A stretch of 51,841 bases of DNA from Pollutimonas nitritireducens (GTDB lineage Bacteria > Pseudomonadota > Gammaproteobacteria > Burkholderiales > Burkholderiaceae_B). Where the stretch lies: positions 1-51,841 of the forward strand of contig NZ_PDNV01000016.1 in the NCBI RefSeq assembly GCF_002849615.1. The letters are read 5' to 3'. Of the stretch, positions 24,435-51,766 are shown piece by piece. The position numbers and the translations under genes are program-made. The notes below the pieces were generated by a model. That model did no database searches. It worked only from the letters and a program-made list of their open reading frames with translations, and had not been told where the DNA came from. Numbering within the stretch: the first letter of the stretch is position 1; the number at the start of each line of letters is the position of its first letter.

Positions 24435-26798
24435 ATGTCGTTTGATGAAGCAGAAACCCAAGCATTTAAAGACAGCGCACGCGACTTTCTGACGCGCGAA
24501 AATCAGGGCGAGCGCATGCGCCGCATGGTGTCCACGCAACAATCGCTGGACCGTGAATTTTGGGGGAAAATCGCTGAAGCAGGTTGGCCGGCTATTCTCA
24601 TACCCGAAGAGCAAGGAGGTTTGGGCCTTGGAATGACCGAGATGACGGCAATCGCCGAGGAGTTCGGGCGCGCGTATATTGGGGACCCGATCATACCAGT
24701 GGCTGTGCAGGCAGCTTCCTTGTTGACGGAGTTGCCCGGAAGCGATCTGCGCAACGAATTGCTCGAAGGCATCGCGAGCGGCTCCCTTGTTGTGGGAACT
24801 GCTTGGCAGCACCGACTCGGCCAGATCGAACCCGAGTGCAAGCACGACGCCGTGCGCCAGGGCGACGTGCTTGCACTGGATGCCGAGTTTGTCGCAGCCT
24901 CGCCCGCTGTCGGGGCCGATGGCTGGCTGGTCTTGGTTGGCGTGGGTGAGCAGCCGGTACTGCTGTGGGTGCCCGCATCGCAAGCAGGAGTGCAAGCTCA
25001 GCGCTACGAGCGGGTGGACGCCTCCAATATGGGTGCACTATCGCTACAAGGCTGTCGCATTCCCGCGCAGAATATTCTGGGCACCGCAGACGACGTCTTG
25101 CGCGCAATTCGCACATCTCTGGATCGGGCGCGCATTGCACAGGCCGCCCAATTGCTTGGTGTGGCGCGGCAATCGTTCGACAGTACACTGGAATACATGA
25201 ATGTGCGGGTGCAGTTCGGCAAGCCGATAGGCAGTTTCCAGAGCCTTCAGCACCGAATGGTAGACGCGTATATTCAGATTCAGCTTCTGGACTACGCCAT
25301 CTGGCAAGCCCTTGGGCTGGTAGAGCAGGACCAAACAGCATTGCCCATGCAGGCCAGCCGGCTCAAGCTCAGAGCCGAACACGCAGCAGGACTGGTGACC
25401 CGCCTCGCAGTACAGATGCATGGCGGCATGGGTTACTCAGATGAGTCCGACATTGGCTTGGGCTTGAAGCGGGCAATGGGCTTGGCTAGCGAACTGGGCA
25501 ACGCACGATCGCATAAAAAGCGGTACTTTTCCCTGATTGATCAGGCCAGACAAGGCCGGCGCGATGATCAGGAGTTGCCGGCAGACAGCACGCACAACCC
25601 TGCCGGCACTCAACAGTTTCCCAAGACAGCAGACTGGGATGAGATGCCGGAAGACGTGTTTCGGCAGATGCTGCGCTCCTTCTTCAAGGTGCATTATCCG
25701 GAGCATCTGCGCCATAAGGCGTCCCGCCTGCATTGGCATCAGATCAAAGACTGGTACAAAACACTGTCCGATCAGAAGTGGATTGCGCCCGCTTGGCCAA
25801 AGGATTACGGCGGCATGGCGCTGTCTCCCGACAAAATGATTGCTTACATCGAAGAGCAGGAACGCTATGGTGTAGGGCGTCCGCCCGACCAGGGTCTCGT
25901 CATGCTGGGGCCAATTCTGTTTCGCTTTGGAACACCAGAGCAAAAGGCCAAATACTTGCCGCCGATTCTGTCCGGCGAGCACGTATGGGCGCAAGGTTAT
26001 TCAGAACCCAACGCGGGATCGGATCTGGCTTCGCTAAGTTGTGCAGCGGTTCTCGAGGGCGAATACTTCATCGTCAATGGCCAAAAGACGTGGTCCACGC
26101 TGGCCCAGGACGCTACCCACATGTTCATGCTGGTGCGTACTGATAAAACGGTCAAAAAGCAGGCCGGTATTAGCTTTTTACTGGTGGATCTCGCGACGCC
26201 CGGCATCGTAGTGCGTCCGATCAAGACGATTGCGGGCGACGAGGAATACTGCGAAATCTTCTTTGATAACGTCAAGGTGCCACGCGAAAACCTGGTTGGC
26301 GAAGTCAATCAGGGCTGGACCATTTCCAAGGCACTGTTGGGCTTTGAGCGCCTGTTCTCGGGTAGCCCCAAACACTCGCAGAACACCATGGGGATCATCG
26401 AAAAGATTGCCGCTCAGACAGGCCTGTTCGAGGACGAGGCATTTGCTGCGGACTATGCTCAGTTGCACTGTGATGTTGCGGACTTGTCGGCGGCATATGC
26501 GGCGTTCTCGGAAATCGTACGTCGCAACGAGCCCTTGCCGGCCAATGTGTCGTTATTAAAGATATGGGCTACCGAGACGCATGAGCGCGCCTCCTTGCTT
26601 CTACTCGAAGCAGCACAAGAGCATGCGGCGAGTGCTGGTTTTAACACTTACGCCGGCCCGAATGCGCACACGGATGCAATCACGGTCGAAGACGTGCAGA
26701 TGCCGCTGTATAACGCCGCAGCAGCCAAGATTTTCAGTGGAACCAATGAAATCCAACGCAATATCCTCGCCAAAATGGTGTTGAATTTGCCTACTTAA
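24435..26798 (+). CDS. Fused double-domain acyl-CoA dehydrogenase
   Basis: A 787-residue protein carrying two acyl-CoA dehydrogenase units in one chain, about residues 1-370 and 400-787; ordinary members are about 380-400 residues. Unit one has the motif GGLGLGMTEMTAIAEEFGRA and ends with MHGGMGYSDESDIG, without an SGTNEIQR-type terminus. Unit two has GYSEPNAGSDLASL (FAD and substrate side), NGQKTWSTLAQDATHM and the closing IFSGTNEIQRNILAKMV. A linker rich in polar residues (about 365-395) joins them. Fused forms such as FadE34 of actinobacteria combine subunits that are otherwise separate heteromer partners. It would introduce a double bond into an acyl-CoA. It starts two bases after the hydrolase. 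Confidence 0.92.
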   Translation: MSFDEAETQAFKDSARDFLTRENQGERMRRMVSTQQSLDREFWGKIAEAGWPAILIPEEQGGLGLGMTEMTAIAEEFGRAYIGDPIIPVAVQAASLLTELPGSDLRNELLEGIASGSLVVGTAWQHRLGQIEPECKHDAVRQGDVLALDAEFVAASPAVGADGWLVLVGVGEQPVLLWVPASQAGVQAQRYERVDASNMGALSLQGCRIPAQNILGTADDVLRAIRTSLDRARIAQAAQLLGVARQSFDSTLEYMNVRVQFGKPIGSFQSLQHRMVDAYIQIQLLDYAIWQALGLVEQDQTALPMQASRLKLRAEHAAGLVTRLAVQMHGGMGYSDESDIGLGLKRAMGLASELGNARSHKKRYFSLIDQARQGRRDDQELPADSTHNPAGTQQFPKTADWDEMPEDVFRQMLRSFFKVHYPEHLRHKASRLHWHQIKDWYKTLSDQKWIAPAWPKDYGGMALSPDKMIAYIEEQERYGVGRPPDQGLVMLGPILFRFGTPEQKAKYLPPILSGEHVWAQGYSEPNAGSDLASLSCAAVLEGEYFIVNGQKTWSTLAQDATHMFMLVRTDKTVKKQAGISFLLVDLATPGIVVRPIKTIAGDEEYCEIFFDNVKVPRENLVGEVNQGWTISKALLGFERLFSGSPKHSQNTMGIIEKIAAQTGLFEDEAFAADYAQLHCDVADLSAAYAAFSEIVRRNEPLPANVSLLKIWATETHERASLLLLEAAQEHAASAGFNTYAGPNAHTDAITVEDVQMPLYNAAAAKIFSGTNEIQRNILAKMVLNLPT

Positions 26799-41591: not shown

Positions 41592-42293
41592 TTAGATATC
41601 GCGTAGCAACTTTCCATAGCCATGGATGGCGTCCGTCTCACCGATCATTTGCAGTGCGGCCCATATGCTGACTTGCGTTGTCGACAGGACCGGTTTTCCC
41701 AGCTCTTGTTCGAGTTGCTCTATCACGCCCATGGTCTTCCAGTTGGTGCAGGCGAGCACGATGGCTTCGGCGTCCGGACGATCGATTTCGCGGGCCAGCT
41801 CGAGCGCGCTGTTATCATCCAGTCGACCAACGGCAAGGTTGTCGACCATGCCCAAGCCCTTTGCGTGAACTACCTCGATGCCACTGGCTTCCAGGAATTC
41901 CTTTGCAATTCCATTGACGCGATCGTCGTAAGCGGCGCCTAGCGCTACCCGCGATATACCGAGCATGCCGAGCGCCTTGACCAAGGCCGTCGACGTGGTG
42001 GTTGCCGGCTTGCCCGAGGCACGCTCTATGCGCTGAGTCACCTCAAGATCGTAACCCAGGCCTTTAAGAAAACTGGGCGCCGTTGCGCCCAGCACAATGA
42101 CATCTACATCGGCGCTGGCTAGATTGCGAGCCTGGACCTCGATGTCGCGCACGACATTCTCGATGGAATCGGTAGCGATCTGCGTCAGATACAGTCGAGC
42201 CACATGCAAGGTGACATGCGGCGGCAACGCACGATAAAACTCTGGTTCGATGGTGGTGTTTGAAGATGGGACGAACAGACCAATACGGCTCAT
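41592..42293 (-). CDS. Asp/Glu racemase superfamily protein, arylmalonate decarboxylase/maleate isomerase-like
   Basis: A 233-residue protein starting MSRIGLFVPSSNTTIEPEFY, a maleate-isomerase-type opening. Superfamily members use two catalytic cysteines. Here the first position is Ala70 (LGATAPSF) and only Cys182 (LACTNWKTM) remains. Arylmalonate decarboxylase likewise keeps only the C-terminal cysteine and has similar MSTAV and RRVALATAY blocks, echoed here by TSTALVKALG and SRVALGAAYDD (from memory). A decarboxylase or one-cysteine isomerase is therefore possible. It lies nine bases after the FAD protein and ends at the bidirectional terminator. Confidence 0.85.
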   Translation of the reverse strand: MSRIGLFVPSSNTTIEPEFYRALPPHVTLHVARLYLTQIATDSIENVVRDIEVQARNLASADVDVIVLGATAPSFLKGLGYDLEVTQRIERASGKPATTTSTALVKALGMLGISRVALGAAYDDRVNGIAKEFLEASGIEVVHAKGLGMVDNLAVGRLDDNSALELAREIDRPDAEAIVLACTNWKTMGVIEQLEQELGKPVLSTTQVSIWAALQMIGETDAIHGYGKLLRDI

Positions 42294-42302
42294 TTTGAAT
42301 AC

Positions 42303-43835
42303 TCACTCAGATGGATTAAAAGCAGAAATCGTTGCAGGCGACTGCGCGGCATTGCGGCCAGCGATGCGGCCCGACACGAAGGCCCAGGCCAGGTGGTGCC
42401 CGTGGCCCTCGAGCAGCAACCCGCCCTGCCCTGCAGAACCTGCCGCGTACAAACCGGGGATAGGATGGTCATCCGCGCCCAAGACCTCGAGTTGCTCGCT
42501 GACCGCCAGACCTCCATCCGTAAACACCACGTAACTCTTGACGGGACCGAGGGCACAATAGCGCCCGCTGCCTAAAGCAGGTCGGCCACCGCGATCCGTT
42601 GAGTTGTTGTACGCATCGATGGACTCACGCAATTCTGGCGAGGGAACGCCCATACTATCGGCAAGGCCTTGCAATGTGCTTGCGCGATGAAAGATGTCTG
42701 GCCGGTTACGCTGATAGTCTTTCAGGTAGGCATACGCCACGCCGGGTGCGGTCGATACGAAGAACGGCCATTGTTCGAATTGGCTGGCGATCGCCTCGTC
42801 CATGACTATCCACGCCACTTTTTCCGGCTGAAGCGCAACATCGGCTGCCGGCTTACCCAGTTCGTTGGTGAATCGATGCCCCAGCTTGTTGATCAAGATG
42901 CCCCCCTGGCGCAGCAGGTCGGGAGAAGGACCCAGCGCCGTGGTCAGAAAGCTCATCAAAAAGGGGCGCAGCACCGCTTGTGGAAGATGTCCCATGGACC
43001 AGGCAATCATCCGGGCGACGAAGCGAGATGGCGGCAAGCGCTGTACCAGATTACGGCGAGAGGGAGGGATGAACCGCATGATCGGCCCACGGACAATATC
43101 GCCGTTGAGCACTCGAGCACCGATGGCCAACGCCATTCTATGGCCGTCACCCGTCGCTGTTGGATTTACCGGGTCTACCGGCACAACCGACTCTGACGCA
43201 AGGCTACGCTTCAGGTCCGCCGCGCCGCTATAGTCACCAGAAGTCAATACCACGCCGTGCCTTGCCAGGAATGAACTCTTGAGGCCATCAGGCCCAACGG
43301 CCTCCACACCGACGACACGGCCGTCCACGACAATAAAGTTGCTGGACTTCGTACCGACGACGATCTCTACGCCTAAAGCCTTGCAGTGGCGCGTCAAATG
43401 GTAGGCAAACGAGGTTGAGTTCGGCACGACATTGTGCATGCGCGCCACACGATGCGGAGGCTCCTCTTCGGGGCCAACGAAGACAACGCCCAAGTCCATC
43501 AGCCACTGAAGCATCTCGCTGCTATTGTCGACGAGAATCCGCCGCAGCCTCAGGTTATCGCGCGGGGCCAATTCACCCGCATGCAGGGCCAGGTCTTCGA
43601 AATGGGCGTCTGCATTGTCTCGGATACCCGCGACTCGCTGATGCGGCGTGTCGGCGGCCGTGACTGAACCCACGGACCAAGACGTCGACCCACCCGGCTT
43701 GGGATTCTTCTCGAGCACCACGACATGACGACCCAGCTTCGCGGCCTCGTACGCTGCAGCCAACCCCGCGCCGCCAGCTCCGATGACCAGGATATCAGAC
43801 ACGGTAACCGTCATGCGAACTCCGTTCTTCGACAT
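42303..43835 (-). CDS. FAD-dependent oxidoreductase (fumarate reductase/3-ketosteroid dehydrogenase-like)
   Basis: A 510-residue flavoprotein. The N-terminal FAD motif is LVIGAGGAGLAAAYEAAKLG followed by VVLEKNPKPGGST. The C-terminal FAD-contact segment is GLYAAGSAGQGGLLLEGHGH and then LAWAFVSGRIAGRNA. This is the FAD_binding_2 fold shared by fumarate reductases, tricarballylate dehydrogenase and ketosteroid delta-1-dehydrogenases; the active-site residues cannot be assigned by eye. A second ATG eight codons in is a possible start. The gene is nine bases before the racemase-like gene, a pairing repeated at 48236-50731. Confidence 0.9.
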   Translation of the reverse strand: MSKNGVRMTVTVSDILVIGAGGAGLAAAYEAAKLGRHVVVLEKNPKPGGSTSWSVGSVTAADTPHQRVAGIRDNADAHFEDLALHAGELAPRDNLRLRRILVDNSSEMLQWLMDLGVVFVGPEEEPPHRVARMHNVVPNSTSFAYHLTRHCKALGVEIVVGTKSSNFIVVDGRVVGVEAVGPDGLKSSFLARHGVVLTSGDYSGAADLKRSLASESVVPVDPVNPTATGDGHRMALAIGARVLNGDIVRGPIMRFIPPSRRNLVQRLPPSRFVARMIAWSMGHLPQAVLRPFLMSFLTTALGPSPDLLRQGGILINKLGHRFTNELGKPAADVALQPEKVAWIVMDEAIASQFEQWPFFVSTAPGVAYAYLKDYQRNRPDIFHRASTLQGLADSMGVPSPELRESIDAYNNSTDRGGRPALGSGRYCALGPVKSYVVFTDGGLAVSEQLEVLGADDHPIPGLYAAGSAGQGGLLLEGHGHHLAWAFVSGRIAGRNAAQSPATISAFNPSE

Positions 43836-43954
43836 ACTTTAAGTTCCTTGCGATGCGATGTGCAGGCGCGGACTAGCCGTCACCAGTATCGCCAGTGTGT
43901 ATGCTTCCGTCGCCAGGGGCAATTTGGAATTGACAAAGCAATGCTTTGTGATTC

Positions 43955-44857
43955 CTAAATCTGCAAAATAAAGTCGATCAACTCGCGGGCGAAGGTACGC
44001 AGTTCAGACTGCTTTCGGACGCAGATACGGAGCTCACGAGTGGCCCACTCGTCCCGCAACTGCACGATCGCAATGCGTGATAACCGCGCAAGCCGGCGCG
44101 CCGCCATCTCGGGAAGCACGCCAATACCGACACCAGCTTCAACCATGCGGCACATCGCATCGTAGCTGGAGACCTGAATGCGCTTATGCATAGCGCGACC
44201 TAGCAATTCCACTTCTTGCTGCAGATACGAGTAGCTGGCGCTGCGAGAATCCAGGCTAATAAACTCATAGTCGAGTGCGTCGGCGAAATGGACGGACTCC
44301 ACCTCCGCCAGCGGATGATTTTGCGGCGCCACGATGACCATCTGGTCTTTCTTATAAGGGAGGGTCTCGAGTCCGTCTGCCGCGACACGGGCCGAGATGA
44401 CACCGATGTCGGCGACTCCCTCGAGCACGGCATGCACGATCTCTGCACTCAACCTTTCCTGCAAGTCGACGGTGATGGCCGGGTTCGTCTCGAAGAACCG
44501 AGCCAAAACCTCGGGAAGGAACTCGCAGATTGCGGTGGCATTGGCAAACAGACGCACATGGCCGCGGACACCCTGGGAAAAGGGCTGGATTTCGTTTTGT
44601 AGCTGCTCGATCTCGTCAAGGACGCGTAGCGCATGTACCAGCAGCACTTCACCCGCCCGTGTAGACGAAACGCCCCGCTTGTTCCGATAAAGAAGCTGGA
44701 CGCCAAGCCGCTCTTCGAGGCTTTTGATACGTAGGCTAGCCGCCGCAACCGACAGGAACACCTTCTCGGCACCTTTGGTGAAACTGTTGCTTTCTGCCAC
44801 CATGACGAAAAGTCTGAGGTCGACCAGGTCGAAACGCGGGATATTCGTGGTTGCCAT
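43955..44857 (-). CDS. LysR family transcriptional regulator
   Basis: A 300-residue LysR protein. The helix-turn-helix (about residues 18-62) contains NSFTKGAEKVFLSVAAASLR and LGVQLLYRNKRGVSSTRAGE. The effector domain begins near residue 90. It is co-directional with all genes from 51712 to 41592, not divergent as LysR genes often are, and lies 119 bases before the FAD protein and 54 bases after a small dimeric-barrel-like gene. It probably regulates this cluster. Confidence 0.92.
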   Translation of the reverse strand: MATTNIPRFDLVDLRLFVMVAESNSFTKGAEKVFLSVAAASLRIKSLEERLGVQLLYRNKRGVSSTRAGEVLLVHALRVLDEIEQLQNEIQPFSQGVRGHVRLFANATAICEFLPEVLARFFETNPAITVDLQERLSAEIVHAVLEGVADIGVISARVAADGLETLPYKKDQMVIVAPQNHPLAEVESVHFADALDYEFISLDSRSASYSYLQQEVELLGRAMHKRIQVSSYDAMCRMVEAGVGIGVLPEMAARRLARLSRIAIVQLRDEWATRELRICVRKQSELRTFARELIDFILQI

Positions 44858-44911
44858 GCCCGCAAGCTTAACTGATACCTACGGCTTCGGGTACTGGGAA
44901 AAGAAAAATTG

Positions 44912-45583
44912 CTACACGGCGTACATCAGATCGTATAGGCCGACTTCGGCGTCGCTCAGCCCAAGCACCTTGCCATCCGGCCAGCAGCGTAATAACTTGC
45001 CTGCTGTCTCCGCATAATCGCCCCGTGTAGCTTCGACCAGCAGTACCCAATGTGCCCGGGCGTCGTCGCTACCCGACTTGCGATGCCCGTCGTGGATCTC
45101 GCGAAATTCGGGTGCCTGCTGCAGCAAATGTATCGCCACAATGCCATGTAGCGCTGCAAGCGCAGGAATGATCTCGTCGGTGACCGCCAGCGCGACTGCC
45201 TCGTCCGAAATGTTCGCCGTATCAGTCCTGAAGCGCAACGACAGCATCAGGCCACCTTCGCCTCGACCCGAGCTATGACGAACCTTGAAAGTATCGCGCA
45301 CGACGTTGTGAAACATGGCACGCATGCGGATATCCGTGGCTTCAACATTGCGCTGCAGGCGCAGATAGCCATCGGACACCAGGTCCTCGGGTTCTTGCAC
45401 TTCGTACAGCGCCAGCGTTGCGGGCTGAGCATCTTGCACGCCCTGAAAACGTCTGACGCGGCGCCAGCCCGGCACGGCAATACGGTCGGCAATATGCCTG
45501 TTTATGTACCAATCATCGCATTCATCTCGCACGGCCGGATCAATATCGATCCAGAGTGCCAATACTGCCTTGCCTTGCATCAT
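44912..45583 (-). CDS. Uncharacterised protein, EthD/dimeric alpha-beta barrel-like
   Basis: About 223 residues from the ATG at 45583, seven bases after AGGA; a GTG at 45601 is a less likely start. I recognise no named family. The N-terminus ALWIDIDPAVRDECDDWYIN, then RHIADRIAVPGWRRVRRFQG, has the pattern of small ferredoxin-like dimeric barrels (EthD-like), in which a D/E-W-Y...H element precedes a strand ending in R-R-F. A second such half may follow near LSLRFRTDTANISDEA. A related protein is at 46657-47154, on the other side of the PRISE-like gene, so the three form a set. Confidence 0.65.
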   Translation of the reverse strand: MMQGKAVLALWIDIDPAVRDECDDWYINRHIADRIAVPGWRRVRRFQGVQDAQPATLALYEVQEPEDLVSDGYLRLQRNVEATDIRMRAMFHNVVRDTFKVRHSSGRGEGGLMLSLRFRTDTANISDEAVALAVTDEIIPALAALHGIVAIHLLQQAPEFREIHDGHRKSGSDDARAHWVLLVEATRGDYAETAGKLLRCWPDGKVLGLSDAEVGLYDLMYAV

Positions 45584-45597
45584 GATTCTTTCCTGGA

Positions 45598-46647
45598 TCA
45601 CGGAATGATTTTATGGCTGCGGTAGAAGTCGAAGCTGTCTCGCCACATCTGCCGGGTGTCAATACTCTCGGTAAGCCCGTGCTCCCTGGCCTTGTCCATG
45701 GAAGAGACGACATCCCATTCCGGGGAGAAAACATAGTCGCCGTAGGCCCATTGCGCGACGGTCGACAATTCGGAAGGACGCAAGCCATGCAGGGATACCA
45801 TATCGCACCATATGTCGCTATGGCTCTCTGGAAAACGTGCAAGCCGCTCGGGCTCGGGGTCGCCGCAGGCCATGTCGAAGTAATCGGCGATGGCGGGCCA
45901 CAATGCGCTCCAGCGTTCTGCGTCCCCGTTCACCACATTGAACGCCTGATTGGCGCAGGTCCGATCGGTGATCATCCATTCGATGGAGCGCGCGAGCATT
46001 GGCAGCCAGGTAAATTGCGTTCTCGACTTGAACGCGAGCTGGGTTCCGGGAAACCGCAGCGGAAGGCCGAGCTCCTTGAGCATGGAGGCATAGATGGCGA
46101 CCAGTAGCGTAATGCTGCGAGGTTCGTCAAGAACCAGATCACAGAAGGTGTGAGGACGTGAAATACTCCAGTCCCATGCCTGTCCACCCTGCTGCTGAAT
46201 CAGGAAGTCCTGCTGCGCGTAGTAGAAAACCGGACGCGGCGAGCGCGGGGCATTTTCGCGATAGGGAACCGGGCCAGGCCCAGCATTGTGTCCGTAATAC
46301 TTGGTGCCATGCACAACATGGATATGGCGCAGATCAGGTCGATCCTTGACCGCCGTCAGCAAATTGGACAGCATCTGCAAATTGATGTCGACCGATTCAA
46401 GTTCTCCACCCGCGTGGTCATAGCGCGCGGCATACACAACATGCGTCACGCCCTGCATACCTCCCAGCTTGCGGCGACAGTCTTCCGCATCAAGCAAGTC
46501 GACAGCAAGCATAGGACACGGCACGTGCTGTTGCACACGACGCGACAGCCCGACCAGATCCCAGCCGCTACGGTCCATCACATGACGCGCGACGGAGGCG
46601 CCGATCTGACCCGTCGCCCCCGCGATCAAAACAAGATTCTGAGCCAT
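45598..46647 (-). CDS. PRISE-like NAD(P)-dependent enone reductase (extended SDR)
   Basis: A 349-residue extended SDR. The cofactor motif is LVLIAGATGQIGASVARHVM near residue 6. VVHGTKYYGHNAGPGPVPYR is the PRISE-type active-site block, with Lys116 in the position of the catalytic lysine and Tyr142/Tyr143 in FYYAQQDFLI in place of the catalytic tyrosine. The family includes progesterone 5-beta-reductase and iridoid synthase, which reduce enone C=C bonds. Bacterial members are largely uncharacterised. It lies between two small dimeric-barrel-like genes (gaps of 14 and 9 bases), a tight operon. Confidence 0.85.
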   Translation of the reverse strand: MAQNLVLIAGATGQIGASVARHVMDRSGWDLVGLSRRVQQHVPCPMLAVDLLDAEDCRRKLGGMQGVTHVVYAARYDHAGGELESVDINLQMLSNLLTAVKDRPDLRHIHVVHGTKYYGHNAGPGPVPYRENAPRSPRPVFYYAQQDFLIQQQGGQAWDWSISRPHTFCDLVLDEPRSITLLVAIYASMLKELGLPLRFPGTQLAFKSRTQFTWLPMLARSIEWMITDRTCANQAFNVVNGDAERWSALWPAIADYFDMACGDPEPERLARFPESHSDIWCDMVSLHGLRPSELSTVAQWAYGDYVFSPEWDVVSSMDKAREHGLTESIDTRQMWRDSFDFYRSHKIIP

Positions 46648-46656
46648 GGAAGGTCG

Positions 46657-47154
46657 CTATGGTGTGAAAGGTTTATAGACTGCCACCCCGGCTTCATGCG
46701 CCAAGGCCTCATCCGCTCCTGGCGGCACGACCGCAATGCCGCGATACGGGGTGGATCGATCCAGGCCGACGGATATCAACCACGTAAAGCCGACATCACC
46801 CAGCACGAGATCGGGCGTATCGCGATCGACCACCCACAGAGCACGATCGGCCGGAACCTCTGGCGCCACTGACATGCCTTCGAAAAGATTACGGCAATAG
46901 AAAGCCCTGTCGATCAACGGCAGCCACTCGCCCATCCCACGAATCTTCTGGTAGTACGGATCCTCGAAGACCGCAATAGCCTCCACGGAATACATGGCTA
47001 GCGAAGGCGGACAACCCTCGCTTTCAGACTTGAATCGCCGTGCCGAATGGATGCCGTCGACCGTTTCCATGATGCGCAAGTGCTCGACGTACCATTCATC
47101 CCACTCGGCTTCCCGAGTACGATCGAGCAATCCGCTCTGACTCATAAAAATCAT
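46657..47154 (-). CDS. Uncharacterised protein, EthD/dimeric alpha-beta barrel-like
   Basis: A 165-residue protein, start behind a G-rich ribosome site (GCAGGGGGG). The segment REAEWDEWYVEHLRIMETVD followed by GIHSARRFKSESEG resembles the protein at 44912-45583 (DECDDWYINRH...GWRRVRRF), so both probably share a dimeric alpha-beta barrel fold. It has no signal peptide and no known catalytic motif. It precedes the PRISE-like gene by nine bases. The function is unknown; lactone, enone or ring-opening chemistry is possible by context only. Confidence 0.65.
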   Translation of the reverse strand: MIFMSQSGLLDRTREAEWDEWYVEHLRIMETVDGIHSARRFKSESEGCPPSLAMYSVEAIAVFEDPYYQKIRGMGEWLPLIDRAFYCRNLFEGMSVAPEVPADRALWVVDRDTPDLVLGDVGFTWLISVGLDRSTPYRGIAVVPPGADEALAHEAGVAVYKPFTP

Positions 47155-47205
47155 TCAATACCCCCCTGCACCGCGGAAAGAGAACCGGAACGCTGATGGC
47201 GACGT

Positions 47206-48177
47206 TCAATTGATTTGCAGCCCGGTTTGCTTAACGATGGGCCCCCACTTGTCGAGCTCGCTCTGTATCTGTTTCGAAAAGTCTTCGGGCTTGCCCCCTA
47301 TGGGCTCGTAGCCGATTGCAAGCAGACGCTTGCGCATATCCGGATCGGCCAGCACCTCGTTAAAGGCCTTGTTCAAGCGGGCAATAGCTTCGGGTGGTGT
47401 GCCGGCTGGCGCAAGCACGCCATTCCACGAGGTGACATCGTAGCCAGGCACACCGGACTCGGAGATGGTGGGTATGTCGGGCAGGCTGATCGAGCGCGCC
47501 CCACTAGTGGTTGCAATAGCACGCAGCTTTCCTGCCTTGATGTTGGCCAAAAGCGTCGAAGGCTCGCCAAAGACCATGTCCACTTCTCCGCTAAGCACCG
47601 CCATTGCAGCGGGGCCGCCCCCTTTGTAAGGCACGTGCATCAGCTTGATGCCTGCCATGTTGGTGAACAACTCGCCTGCCAGATGATTGATGGCACCATT
47701 ACCGCTGGACGCGAACTTCAGCTTTCCAGGCGACGCCTTCGCCAGGGCAATCAGGTCTTTGACGCTGTGCGCCTGAACCGATGCATTGACAACCAATAGC
47801 TGTGGCACCGATGTCAGGAAAATCACGGGAGCAAAGTCGCCCTGTTCGAACGGCATCGTCTTGTAGATGTGCGGATTGATCGAATGCGTCCCGGAATAAG
47901 CAAAAACCATGGTGTACCCATCCGGCTTCGCATCGGCTGCCGCGCGGGCGCCAATATTGCCGCCCGCTCCACCCTGGTTGAAGATAATGACCGGTTGTCC
48001 CAATTTCTCTGAAACCTTTTCACTGAACAAACGCGCTACCACATCCGCACCGCCGCCCACCGGCCATGGAACGATCCATTTGATAGGACGGTCAGGGTAG
48101 CCTTGGGCCATCACCGAGGGGGCGATTACCGCGGCCGCCAGAAGCAGCAACAAATTATTCCAGATTTTTTTCATCAT
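47206..48177 (-). CDS. Bug family periplasmic substrate-binding receptor
   Basis: A 323-residue receptor with a Sec signal of about 24 residues ending VMAQ. The mature N-terminus is GYPDRPIKWIVPWPVGGGAD, and VPYKGGGPAAMAVLSGEVDM is in the binding domain. The start follows AAGGAGACAT. It lies between the maleate-isomerase-like gene and the PRISE block. Together with the receptor at 50744 it gives this cluster two Bug proteins, but no TctA/TctB. Confidence 0.92.
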   Translation of the reverse strand: MMKKIWNNLLLLLAAAVIAPSVMAQGYPDRPIKWIVPWPVGGGADVVARLFSEKVSEKLGQPVIIFNQGGAGGNIGARAAADAKPDGYTMVFAYSGTHSINPHIYKTMPFEQGDFAPVIFLTSVPQLLVVNASVQAHSVKDLIALAKASPGKLKFASSGNGAINHLAGELFTNMAGIKLMHVPYKGGGPAAMAVLSGEVDMVFGEPSTLLANIKAGKLRAIATTSGARSISLPDIPTISESGVPGYDVTSWNGVLAPAGTPPEAIARLNKAFNEVLADPDMRKRLLAIGYEPIGGKPEDFSKQIQSELDKWGPIVKQTGLQIN

Positions 48178-48235
48178 ATGTCTCCTTTATATCTGCAGAT
48201 GCAGAAGAACAAACTTCCGCGGGGCCACTACTTAT

Positions 48236-48973
48236 TTATGTGTGTTGAATAGGACTGGAAAGGCTGCGCAGCAAGCGGCCGCTGTCTACGATGCCTGGAT
48301 CTATATGCATCAAGTCAAAGGCTTGCCAAGCGGAAGCTTGAACGGCGCTGTAAACGGGTTTGCCCAGGTCCCGTTCGAGCATATCGATGACTTCTAGAGC
48401 ACGCAGCTGGGTGCACGAAATGAACACGGCTTCGGAATCAGGCATGATAGTTTCTTTGACTTTCTGATAAATTTCTTCTGGAAGGATCTTGGCGTGGTCG
48501 AACATGTCGAGCATATCGAAGGTCGATAGCTTGCCGACCTCAATGCCGTGCAGCTTCAAGAAGTCTTTCAATCGGGCATTGGTCACGTCTACATAAGGCG
48601 TGACGATATCGACTTTTTTATGGCCGCCCGCATTTAGTCCAGCGACCATGGCGCCTGCGGTCGTTACGGTTGGCGCGCCTGTTATCGTTGTCAGCTCTTC
48701 GCAGATGCGCGCGTTCCATTCGGGCCCTTCGAAAAAGCTGCCGCTCGTGCAGCCGTACACCACCACATCGGGCTCGATCATGGCTATTTCTTCTGCTGCC
48801 TTCTTGCTCGCGTTTTCCATGCTGCGCAGTTCATCGGGCGTACCCTGTCGGCCGCCCGCGATCCGGGCAACGTGAACTGAAACACCCTCGGGCGCGATTT
48901 TCCAGAACTCTGTTTCCATCGTGGTGTTGATAGAAGGTACTAACAGACCAATCCTTCCTCGCCATCCGTACAT
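48236..48973 (-). CDS. Asp/Glu racemase superfamily protein, maleate isomerase-like
   Basis: About 245 residues from the ATG at 48973, behind AAAAGGAAGACTA; the frame can open earlier at 49015. It starts GRIGLLVPSINTTMETEFWK. Both catalytic cysteines of maleate cis-trans isomerase-type enzymes are present: Cys75 in VYGCTSGSFFEG and Cys187 in FISCTQLRALEV. It may isomerise or racemise an unsaturated diacid or hydantoin-like compound. Its relative at 41592-42293 has lost the first cysteine. It follows the FAD protein by 51 bases. Confidence 0.9.
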   Translation of the reverse strand: MYGWRGRIGLLVPSINTTMETEFWKIAPEGVSVHVARIAGGRQGTPDELRSMENASKKAAEEIAMIEPDVVVYGCTSGSFFEGPEWNARICEELTTITGAPTVTTAGAMVAGLNAGGHKKVDIVTPYVDVTNARLKDFLKLHGIEVGKLSTFDMLDMFDHAKILPEEIYQKVKETIMPDSEAVFISCTQLRALEVIDMLERDLGKPVYSAVQASAWQAFDLMHIDPGIVDSGRLLRSLSSPIQHT

Positions 48974-49024
48974 TAGTCTTCCTTTTAAAAAGTAGAAATG
49001 GGCGGCTCGGCCCACGGGGACCCG

Positions 49025-50731
49025 CTATTCGGGCATCAAGAATTCCGTCACCAGCTTCACGAGTTCGGCTACGCCGAGCACGACGACCAGAGCGACGACC
49101 GCAAGCACCAGCGCAATCGGCAACACAAACCACGAAAGCAAATTCCATCCCAACGAAACCACGATTGCCGCAACGGTTGCACCCGCCATAAGCCCGATAG
49201 CCTTGTCATGGCGCACCACCATATTCAGGACCGGAAAACGGGCCAAGCCATGGACCTGTTCCTCCCGATTCGGATCGGAGTGGCCAACCTGGCCTCTGTC
49301 ATTACCGTCGCTGGAAAACGACTTGCCCTCTAACGTGGCCACCCGCTCGGCGGCCAACAGGCCGAAACATCCCGCCTTGATCAGGCCCCCGATGTACGTT
49401 GAACGCTTGCCACCTTCAAGGCCGCCCGTCGTCGCGCCTGCGGCAAAGAGTCCCGGTATCGGCTGCCCGCTTCTGTCCAGGACTTCCGCGTGTTCATTGA
49501 TGTCGATGCCGCCCATCGTGTAGGTAATACCCGGGCAGATCGGAATTGCCATCAAGGGCAGATGGCGAACGGCATAGGGTTGGGTCTGCTCGGACCTCGG
49601 GATGTCCAGCTCCTGCAACGTGCCCGCATCCAGGGCGCGGTTGTAAGAGTCCAGCGTCTGCGCAAGGGCGGCGGCGGGAACATCCATCTTCTGCGCCAGC
49701 TCCGCCACGGAATCGGCGCGCAAAATCGTTCCACCCGCCCGTTCCAGCAGCGGATTGGCCGGAATGCGAGCCGTGGTCCCGGGCCCGTTCCAGATCGACG
49801 CGTCGAACACGGCGAAGAGCCTGTCGACGCAGGGCTGCGAGGCCAATTCATTGGCCAGGCTCACCCCCGTCCTGCCCTCGTCGACGCAGCGGCGGCCAGA
49901 ACCATCCACGACGATACCCGCCGTGGCTATGGCGTCGACCTCAGGGTAAGGCCATACCTGGTCGTTATGTTTCGCGTCGCTGCACAACAGGTGGCCGTAG
50001 AAGCGGCTGCAGTCGGTGAGCGCCGCGCCGGCTGCCTGGGCCATCTGAAGGCCGTCGCCATGACCGGTGCTTGCGCCGCGTTGAAACAACGCGTCGAAGC
50101 GTGGCGTAATGTATTGCTCAACCAATAAGCGGTTTGCTTGAAAACCGCCATCAGCCAGCACGCAATGTGTAGCGCGCCATTCTTTCGGCTGGCCGTCACA
50201 CTCACCGCGAGCCCCTACACAACGTCCATCCTCGATCAGAAGGCCCTTGACACGCGCCTTCAGCTGCAGCTTGCCGCCCATCTCGCCGAGCGTTCTCGCC
50301 AACTGGCGCAGCATCACGTCCGGCCCGCGCTTCTTCCAGTCGACGCCGGCACGCAAGGCCCGCGGCGGCGACATGCACCAACGATAGCCTTCCTGCGGAT
50401 TGAAACGCATGAATTTCCCGCCCTCCCCCTGGAGCCAGGAGATCAGCCGGGCACCCGTCTGCGCAAGAGCGCGTGCCAGCTCAGGCTTGGCTTCACCGCC
50501 GGTCAACCGGGCGATGATGTCGACGAGTTCCTGCGCGGGTCGGTAAGGATCATGGAAACCAATATGCAGGATGCCCCCCGATTGCCGTGAGTTGCAGGGA
50601 TAATCCTCGCCGTCACCTTGCTCCAGCACCAGCGGACGCAAACCCAGTTGCGCGGCGCGGACGCCGGCGGTAAGCCCGGCCAAGCCGCCTCCGACGATGA
50701 TCAAGTCGGGAAGAAAAAAATCCTTACTCAT
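49025..50731 (-). CDS. FAD-dependent oxidoreductase with C-terminal membrane segments
   Basis: A 568-residue flavoprotein of the fumarate reductase/tricarballylate dehydrogenase type. The FAD motif is LIIVGGGLAGLTAGVRAAQL followed by VLEQGDGEDYPCNSRQSGG. ITYTMGGIDINEHAEVLDRS and GLFAAGATTGGLEGGKRST are the C-terminal catalytic and FAD-contact parts, and the enzyme domain ends near residue 480. Residues about 511-558 hold two strongly hydrophobic stretches (AIGLMAGATVAAIVVSLGW and then VLPIALVLAVVALVVVLGVA), not usual in this soluble family. They would anchor the enzyme in the inner membrane and might pass electrons to quinone (inference). Confidence 0.88.
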   Translation of the reverse strand: MSKDFFLPDLIIVGGGLAGLTAGVRAAQLGLRPLVLEQGDGEDYPCNSRQSGGILHIGFHDPYRPAQELVDIIARLTGGEAKPELARALAQTGARLISWLQGEGGKFMRFNPQEGYRWCMSPPRALRAGVDWKKRGPDVMLRQLARTLGEMGGKLQLKARVKGLLIEDGRCVGARGECDGQPKEWRATHCVLADGGFQANRLLVEQYITPRFDALFQRGASTGHGDGLQMAQAAGAALTDCSRFYGHLLCSDAKHNDQVWPYPEVDAIATAGIVVDGSGRRCVDEGRTGVSLANELASQPCVDRLFAVFDASIWNGPGTTARIPANPLLERAGGTILRADSVAELAQKMDVPAAALAQTLDSYNRALDAGTLQELDIPRSEQTQPYAVRHLPLMAIPICPGITYTMGGIDINEHAEVLDRSGQPIPGLFAAGATTGGLEGGKRSTYIGGLIKAGCFGLLAAERVATLEGKSFSSDGNDRGQVGHSDPNREEQVHGLARFPVLNMVVRHDKAIGLMAGATVAAIVVSLGWNLLSWFVLPIALVLAVVALVVVLGVAELVKLVTEFLMPE

Positions 50732-50743
50732 TTGGTAGCGCCA

Positions 50744-51712
50744 TCACAATTGCAGATTCGACACCTTAGCCATGCGCTTGATGTTCTCCGCATCCTTGAC
50801 CATGAAGTCCAGCCATTCCTTGGAAGAACCCGGCATGATCTCCATACCCTGGCTTTCGATGGATGCCTGAATCGTTGGATCTTGCAAGGCTTGCTGGGTG
50901 ACATCATTCAGCTTCTGAACGATATCTGCGGGAACGCCTTTCGGACCAACAAAGCCGAACCAGCACAGGAAGTCAAAATCCTTGTAGCCGAGCTCTTCGA
51001 AGGTCGGAATATCCGGAAGGATCTTCGACCTTTCCGATCCACTGACTGCCAGCGCTCTGACCTTACCGGCTTTTAGCATCGTCAATGCGGACGGCAAGGT
51101 GGGAAAGTTAGCGTCAACCTGACCCGAGGCGGTCGCGACAACACTAGGACCTGCCCCTTTGAAAGGGACATGAAGCAACTTTATGCCCGCCAAAGTATTG
51201 AAGTACTCGCCGCAGAGCTGAGTCGTCCCCGCGACGCCGTCCGACCCGTAACTGAGTCCGTCTCCTTTCTCCCGGGCCAGCTTTACGAATTCGGCGACGT
51301 TTTTGACCGGCAGCGAATTATTGACCAGCATGACCACAGGGGTTTTGGTAACTGCGGCAATAGGGGTGCAGACGTCGACGGGGTCGTAGTTAAAGTCCGA
51401 TTTCAGAATGGAGTGAATGAAGGCGCCACTGGCATTCATCAGGATGGTGTAGCCATCCGACGCGGCACGCTCAACCTGACCCGCCGCCAGCGTGCCGGCC
51501 GCACCTGGCTTGTTTTCCACAACAATGGGTTGCCCAAAGGCGCTGGACATTCTCGTCGAGACGATACGCGCTGTCACATCGGTTCCGCCACCCGGTGAAA
51601 ATCCTACAAGCACTGACAAGGGGCGCGTCGGATAGCCCTGAGCGAACAGAATCCGGGGACCTGCAGCGGCGAGCCCTGCCGTCGCCATCATGAAGTGTCT
51701 ACGAGTTATCAA
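50744..51712 (-). CDS. Bug family periplasmic receptor with twin-arginine-like signal
   Basis: The frame runs to a TTG at 51745, but that start would place the ribosome site (AAAGGAGG, 51732-51739) inside the gene. A TTG at 51712 gives a neat N-terminus, LITRRHFMMATAGLAAAGPR, resembling a Tat signal ending FAQ near residue 25; it is 18 bases past the ribosome site, so the start is uncertain. The mature part begins GYPTRPLSVLVGFSPGGGTD and has VPFKGAGPSVVATASGQVDA. First complete gene of the minus-strand cluster, 12 bases before the membrane-anchored flavoprotein. Confidence 0.88.
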   Translation of the reverse strand: MITRRHFMMATAGLAAAGPRILFAQGYPTRPLSVLVGFSPGGGTDVTARIVSTRMSSAFGQPIVVENKPGAAGTLAAGQVERAASDGYTILMNASGAFIHSILKSDFNYDPVDVCTPIAAVTKTPVVMLVNNSLPVKNVAEFVKLAREKGDGLSYGSDGVAGTTQLCGEYFNTLAGIKLLHVPFKGAGPSVVATASGQVDANFPTLPSALTMLKAGKVRALAVSGSERSKILPDIPTFEELGYKDFDFLCWFGFVGPKGVPADIVQKLNDVTQQALQDPTIQASIESQGMEIMPGSSKEWLDFMVKDAENIKRMAKVSNLQL

Positions 51713-51766
51713 TTTTGTCTTATATGGACGCCTCCTTTGTGGCAATCGAATTTTTGAAATGTGTGG

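Follow-up and report, generated by a model that had tools for sequence, protein, structure and literature searches.

An alanine/cysteine clade of the Amdase family conserved beside FAD dehydrogenases in a Pollutimonas nitritireducens gene cluster

Contig NZ_PDNV01000016.1 of Pollutimonas nitritireducens, a member of the Bordetella family, analyzed over positions 1 to 51,841 (the window), carries two racemase-superfamily genes, isoA and isoB, each next to a gene for a flavin adenine dinucleotide (FAD)-binding protein, fadA and fadB, respectively. The open reading frame list of the window places both pairs on the minus strand, with the flavoprotein first in transcription. A preliminary description had recognized the two pairs in this order and strand, and all four genes lie where it put them. 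It interpreted them as a duplicated module in which one pair may isomerize and the other decarboxylate, each isomerase linked to its own flavoprotein. Does the locus hold two such modules or one gene set, and what chemistry would a homolog with a single active-site cysteine perform beside a dehydrogenase? The best-supported answer places isoA in a distinct Ala/Cys clade of relatives of arylmalonate decarboxylase (AMDase) and maleate isomerase, conserved beside FAD dehydrogenases within one gene set. The four genes are as follows.

41592..42293, minus strand: isoA, 233 amino acids, Asp/Glu racemase superfamily (Pfam Amdase), with Ala70 and a single Cys182
42303..43835, minus strand: fadA, FAD_binding_2 flavoprotein, 510 amino acids, with an invariant HGHH (residues 478-481)
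48236..48973, minus strand: isoB, Asp/Glu racemase superfamily (Pfam Amdase), 245 amino acids, with Cys75 and Cys187
49025..50731, minus strand: fadB, FAD_binding_2 flavoprotein, 568 amino acids, with a hydrophobic C-terminal tail

Read in the sequence, the fadA-isoA junction is 9 bp long. The start of isoB is most likely the ATG at 48973, which lies behind AAGGAAG and 51 bp after fadB; a GTG at 49015 was set aside in its favor.

Divergence and active-site residues of the two isomerase homologs

Both isomerase homologs match PF17645 (Amdase), isoA with 145 bits and isoB with 114.4 bits. The only cysteine of isoA is Cys182, and isoB has Cys75, Cys91, and Cys187; alignment places Ala70 of isoA at Cys75 of isoB and at Gly74 of AMDase. 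The residue numbers of the preliminary description (Cys75 and Cys187 in one protein, Cys182 with Ala at the first site in the other) are thus correct. A 91-row tree places isoA in a clade of 30 and isoB in a clade of 22, each with 100/99 support. Other family members lie between them, and the branch parting the two sides has 94/86 support; several long branches of this tree are unsure, AMDase included. The first site is Ala in 29 of the 30 isoA-clade rows and the second is Cys in 28, and both cysteines are kept in all 22 isoB-clade rows. Because the residues are so nearly uniform within each clade, the one-cysteine versus two-cysteine contrast is not a chance difference. Cys182, Asn12, and Asn152, among others, are invariant across the 28 core isoA rows. 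Overall, 144 of 245 residues are invariant in isoB (22 rows), compared with 48 of 233 in isoA (28 rows); the isoA rows take in more distant relatives, and part of this difference reflects sampling.

The pairs did not arise by duplication of a module, as had been proposed, because isoA and isoB are only 34% identical, fadA and fadB only 24% identical (over 417 alignment positions), and every one of these genes has far closer relatives elsewhere. Their counterparts in Bordetella sp. BOR01 (locus L047) are 84% (isoA), 88% (isoB), 86% (fadA), and 78% (fadB) identical, and the two isomerase homologs sit in separate clades.

Gly/Cys is the combination in a separate group of Amdase-family members (L028, L033, L103, and L104, with L028 and L103 being one and the same gene), which has the motifs FGGTSASF and SCTNFRT and is without the PP motif of AMDase. 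Loss of the first cysteine is therefore not confined to AMDase and isoA.

Linkage of the isoA clade to flavoproteins

We collected 19 isoA matches of at least 46% identity and 12 public loci (L048-L059), which, with one contig shared, gave 30 distinct loci outside the window. A FAD_binding_2 gene lies within 5 kb of isoA in 24 of them: fadA in 13 (one of these, L130, also has fadB, and another, L052, a further 29% relative) and a fadB-like gene in 11. Among loci with full 5-kb flanks, 16 of 18 are linked. Only 2 of 27 loci with other Amdase-family genes are (2 of 22 with full flanks), and one of these adjoins an isoA-clade gene. Fisher's test gives p ~2e-8 for all loci and ~3e-7 for those with full flanks, on the assumption, not valid here, that related loci are independent. 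Flavoprotein linkage is a trait of the Ala/Cys isoA clade (24/30 versus 2/27 in other members). It is kept in same-strand, divergent, and convergent layouts, and this survival through all three orientations favors a functional tie between isoA and the flavoprotein.

Viewed from fadA, eight of nine genomes with fadA at 61% identity or more (the window counted) have isoA or isoB within 5 kb, whereas the same holds for 2 of the 29 relatives of fadA at 44-57% (p ~8e-6). A second FAD_binding_2 gene lies within 5 kb in 17 of those 29 relatives (L131-L149 and L151-L158), which shows that flavoproteins of this type often occur in tandem.

Linkage is sparser for isoB, with a flavoprotein within 5 kb in 9 of 22 loci (4 of 9 with full flanks) and none within that distance in the other 13, several of which are cut by contig ends. 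Elsewhere isoB also occurs near fadA (e.g., L082 and L084). The association of isomerase and flavoprotein noted in the preliminary description therefore recurs for isoA, but the assignment of a private flavoprotein to each isomerase is not supported, since in other genomes isoA and isoB are often neighbors, isoA lies near either type, and isoB lies near fadA or has no flavoprotein within 5 kb. We found no described system with this pairing in the open-access literature searched, in agreement with the earlier statement.

A single gene set and its proposed pathway

The remaining genes around the two pairs are as follows.

43955..44857, minus strand: LysR-type regulator, with an 88% identical counterpart in L047
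44912..45586, minus strand: ethd2, small protein, EthD-like as judged only by eye; present too in L047 and L053
45598..46647, minus strand: prise, PRISE-like Rossmann protein (PF22917) that recurs in the cluster
46657..47154, minus strand: ethd1, small protein, EthD-like by eye only
47206..48177, minus strand: bug2, Bug/TctC-type periplasmic binding protein (by eye) that recurs in the cluster
50744..51745, minus strand: bug3, second Bug/TctC-type binding protein (by eye), upstream of fadB; 78% in L047

We take bug2 and bug3 to be Bug/TctC-type receptors. The recurrent ethd1 and ethd2 have no Pfam match at E 0.001, nor at E 1. Elsewhere in the window (24435-26798), a single frame of 787 amino acids resembles, by eye, a fusion of two acyl-CoA dehydrogenase halves.

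Scanning public genome contigs with isoA yielded 16 loci, 13 of which (L047-L059) carry isoA at 62-84% identity. In 9 of the 13, isoB is directly beside isoA on the same strand, 44-240 bp away, and these tandem loci contain at most one detected flavoprotein. In six of the nine, fadA and ethd1 follow; an NMT1-type binding protein (PF13379) comes after isoB in four, and a bug2 relative lies farther along in four. The contig stops soon after isoB in L048, L054, and L055. Among 349 genomes of the order, with at most seven candidates scored in the listed genomes, isoB was found at 73-78% identity (E up to 1e-60) in 12 genomes besides that of the window. Eleven of these have isoA at 58-65%, and 11 have a fadB relative at 48-50%. 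The ethd1 gene is present no more than 5 kb from isoB in 14 of 22 loci. In four genomes of the same genus, isoA had no match at E 1e-10 in three and only a 32% match in the fourth; the gene set looks accessory in the genus.

That isomerization and decarboxylation are divided between two separate modules, with a flavoprotein dedicated to each, is very improbable. The window and Bordetella sp. BOR01 do have the two pairs side by side, but no other such locus was seen, and in other genomes partners are swapped and isoA and isoB lie in tandem. The search for the gene pair in other genomes that the preliminary description had called for thus recovered the isoA-flavoprotein link repeatedly and the complete double arrangement once.

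We favor, with a probability of roughly 55%, a reading in which a single gene set for organic-acid breakdown includes all four genes, with isoA carrying out a one-sided proton transfer in concert with a FAD dehydrogenase and isoB acting as a two-base enzyme of the same pathway. Residues, clades, linkage, and co-occurrence were observed directly; we infer the chemistry, order of steps, substrate, and uptake. An organic acid would be taken up, probably with the help of Bug-type receptors. With Cys182 alone, isoA should be able to protonate or deprotonate the alpha-carbon from one face; without the first thiol it would form no covalent adduct of the maleate-isomerase kind and perform no two-thiol racemization. 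Most likely, it would transfer a proton on one side of a carboxylic or dicarboxylic acid, with a double-bond shift, tautomerization, or decarboxylative protonation as candidate reactions. It would thereby supply, or take over, the substrate of fadA or fadB, putative FAD dehydrogenases of the ketosteroid-dehydrogenase/fumarate-reductase family. With both thiols, isoB would contribute a two-base racemase or cis-trans isomerase to this pathway. In addition to the FAD dehydrogenase, the set often holds this two-cysteine paralog, the PRISE-like protein, and the two small Pfam-less proteins.

Several observations weigh against this interpretation. Only 3 of the 12 isoB genomes have fadA at 61% identity or more, and in one (G828, 88% complete) neither isoA nor fadB was found. 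Five genomes (G127, G143, G172, G193, and G050) carry an isoA subgroup at 46-50% with the closest isoB at 38% or less; isoB is therefore not a constant member of the set. Five isoB loci from five genomes of one family (L076-L079 and L081; family f194) have no isoA, flavoprotein, or ethd1 within 5 kb; only Bug-type genes of the set are near, and contig ends truncate three of these loci. Six isoA loci lack a nearby flavoprotein: L048, L054, and L055 end at the contig edge beside isoB, and L169 is on a short contig in a genome that has fadB, ethd1, and prise on another (L168). The other two, L087 (G193) and L171 (G820), have none within 5 kb despite full flanks, although the L087 genome encodes fadA, ethd1, prise, and bug2 on a second contig (L150). 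Two long-branch isoA rows, L170 and L171, are without the cysteine, L171 being the row without both active-site residues. Since L170 nevertheless adjoins a fadB relative, the thiol may not be needed everywhere. Finally, the 27 comparison loci were hand-picked, and many loci come from related genomes, so that the counts are not independent. The two rows without cysteine are second isoA-like copies (L170:7316-8011, 52%; L171:6777-7460, 50%), and the L170 copy lies 88 bp from the fadB relative.

Loss of the first catalytic cysteine across the clade, and of the second in two rows, together with the presence of isoA in nearly all isoB genomes, would also fit an isoA that in this setting is noncatalytic and acts on isoB or the flavoprotein as a partner subunit or a regulator. 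We regard this as distinctly unlikely, given that Cys182, Asn12, Asn152, and other residues are invariant in the core rows, as for an active site, and that isoA-clade genes occur without a close isoB in the five genomes named above.

Comparison with known enzymes

Both fadA and fadB match FAD_binding_2 and so share a Pfam family with flavocytochrome c3 fumarate reductase, urocanate reductase, and ketosteroid and cyclohexanone dehydrogenases; fadA is also predicted to share their fold. Neither reaches the curated NCBIfam cut-offs considered: for flavocytochrome c (TIGR01813, cut-off 285.45), fadA scores 159 and fadB 161.1 bits, and for the tricarballylate dehydrogenase TcuA (NF006130, cut-off 369), 137.5 and 186.6 bits. 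In the alignments, fadA has a gap at the place of the catalytic Arg402 of fumarate reductase, and fadB has Gly there. The hydrophobic tail of fadB (window 49028-49300), possibly a membrane anchor, is present in 3 of 17 aligned rows (the window, L047, and L172), several of the others being trimmed to their matched part.

In maleate cis-trans isomerases, the Asn residues of the PSSN and DNxxV stretches have a carboxylate-binding role. Both are present in isoA (N12 and N152); isoB has the first (N16) and Met at the second place. Further rows of the family, e.g., L060, L094, L099, L109, and L110, share the second Asn. With the maleate isomerases (NicE, 4fq7; Nocardia, 2xec/2xed), isoA shares the fold, the N-terminal PSSN, the Asn at AMDase position 156, and the second cysteine, but it has Ala70 in place of the nucleophilic first cysteine and so departs from the two-cysteine pattern. 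Both catalytic cysteines are found in isoB, which differs in having CTSGS rather than CLVAI or CLVAV and Met rather than Asn at position 156. Similarity to EutA of ectoine utilization (TIGR02990, cut-off 318) is at the family level, with isoB (131 bits) and isoA (110.5 bits) far below the cut-off.

The best matches of isoA in a search of PDB sequences are AMDase chains (E 3e-26). AMDase (EC 4.1.1.76; PDB 3dg9/3dtv) resembles isoA in fold and in carrying a Cys at position 188 but lacking one at 74, and its Thr75 and Tyr126 recur in isoA. AMDase genes, too, have orphan Bug-type receptors nearby (PMC4996985). By our own reading of Table 4 of that paper, which accepts similar residues, isoA departs from 7 of 12 published AMDase criteria. 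At P14P15, T75S76, G189, Y48, and V156 it has PS, TA, T, I, and N, and its motifs LGATAPSF and IVLACTNW replace the stereochemical motifs LMGTSLSF and ILLSCGGL, all judged not similar; the V156 position is Asn in all 30 isoA-clade rows. Agreement is found at L40 and Y126 (identical) and at V43 and M159 (similar, I and V). The C188/G74 pair gives a mixed picture: Cys182 aligns with C188, but 29 of 30 rows have Ala where AMDase has Gly74. The AMDase equivalog NF052327 (cut-off 225) is likewise reached by neither isoA (136.9 bits) nor isoB (105 bits). Because of the seven departures, isoA should not be filed as an arylmalonate decarboxylase, and the likeness drawn in the preliminary description is not supported as stated, isoA also carrying Asn at both maleate-isomerase positions; decarboxylation by isoA is possible.

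A true AMDase-like decarboxylase, in which the single cysteine protonates an enediolate and isoB racemizes the product to the enantiomer oxidized by the FAD dehydrogenase, is a possible but doubtful account. It draws on the shared lone second cysteine with a small residue at the first site, on the PDB matches, on the tandem isoA-isoB layout, and on AMDase G74C, which with two catalytic cysteines shows epimerizing activity (PMC12576825). The departures at the hydrophobic-pocket positions Y48 and V156 and at P15, S76, and G189 argue against it, as do the five genomes with isoA-clade genes and no isoB closer than 38%. A specific couple, in which isoA would decarboxylate a substituted malonate to a single enantiomer, isoB would invert that enantiomer, and the linked FAD dehydrogenase would desaturate the product, we consider unlikely; if true, it would give AMDase-type chemistry a physiological role.

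AMDase has been extensively engineered as a biocatalyst, although in 2016 its natural substrate was reported not to have been identified (PMC4996985). The gene neighbors named there are MR/MLE and transporter genes, with flavoproteins not among them in the parts read. A single-thiol clade conserved beside FAD dehydrogenases offers a genetic handle on the role of this chemistry, and its partner genes, encoding the FAD proteins, the PRISE-like protein, two small family-less proteins, and the receptors, provide starting points for finding the substrate.

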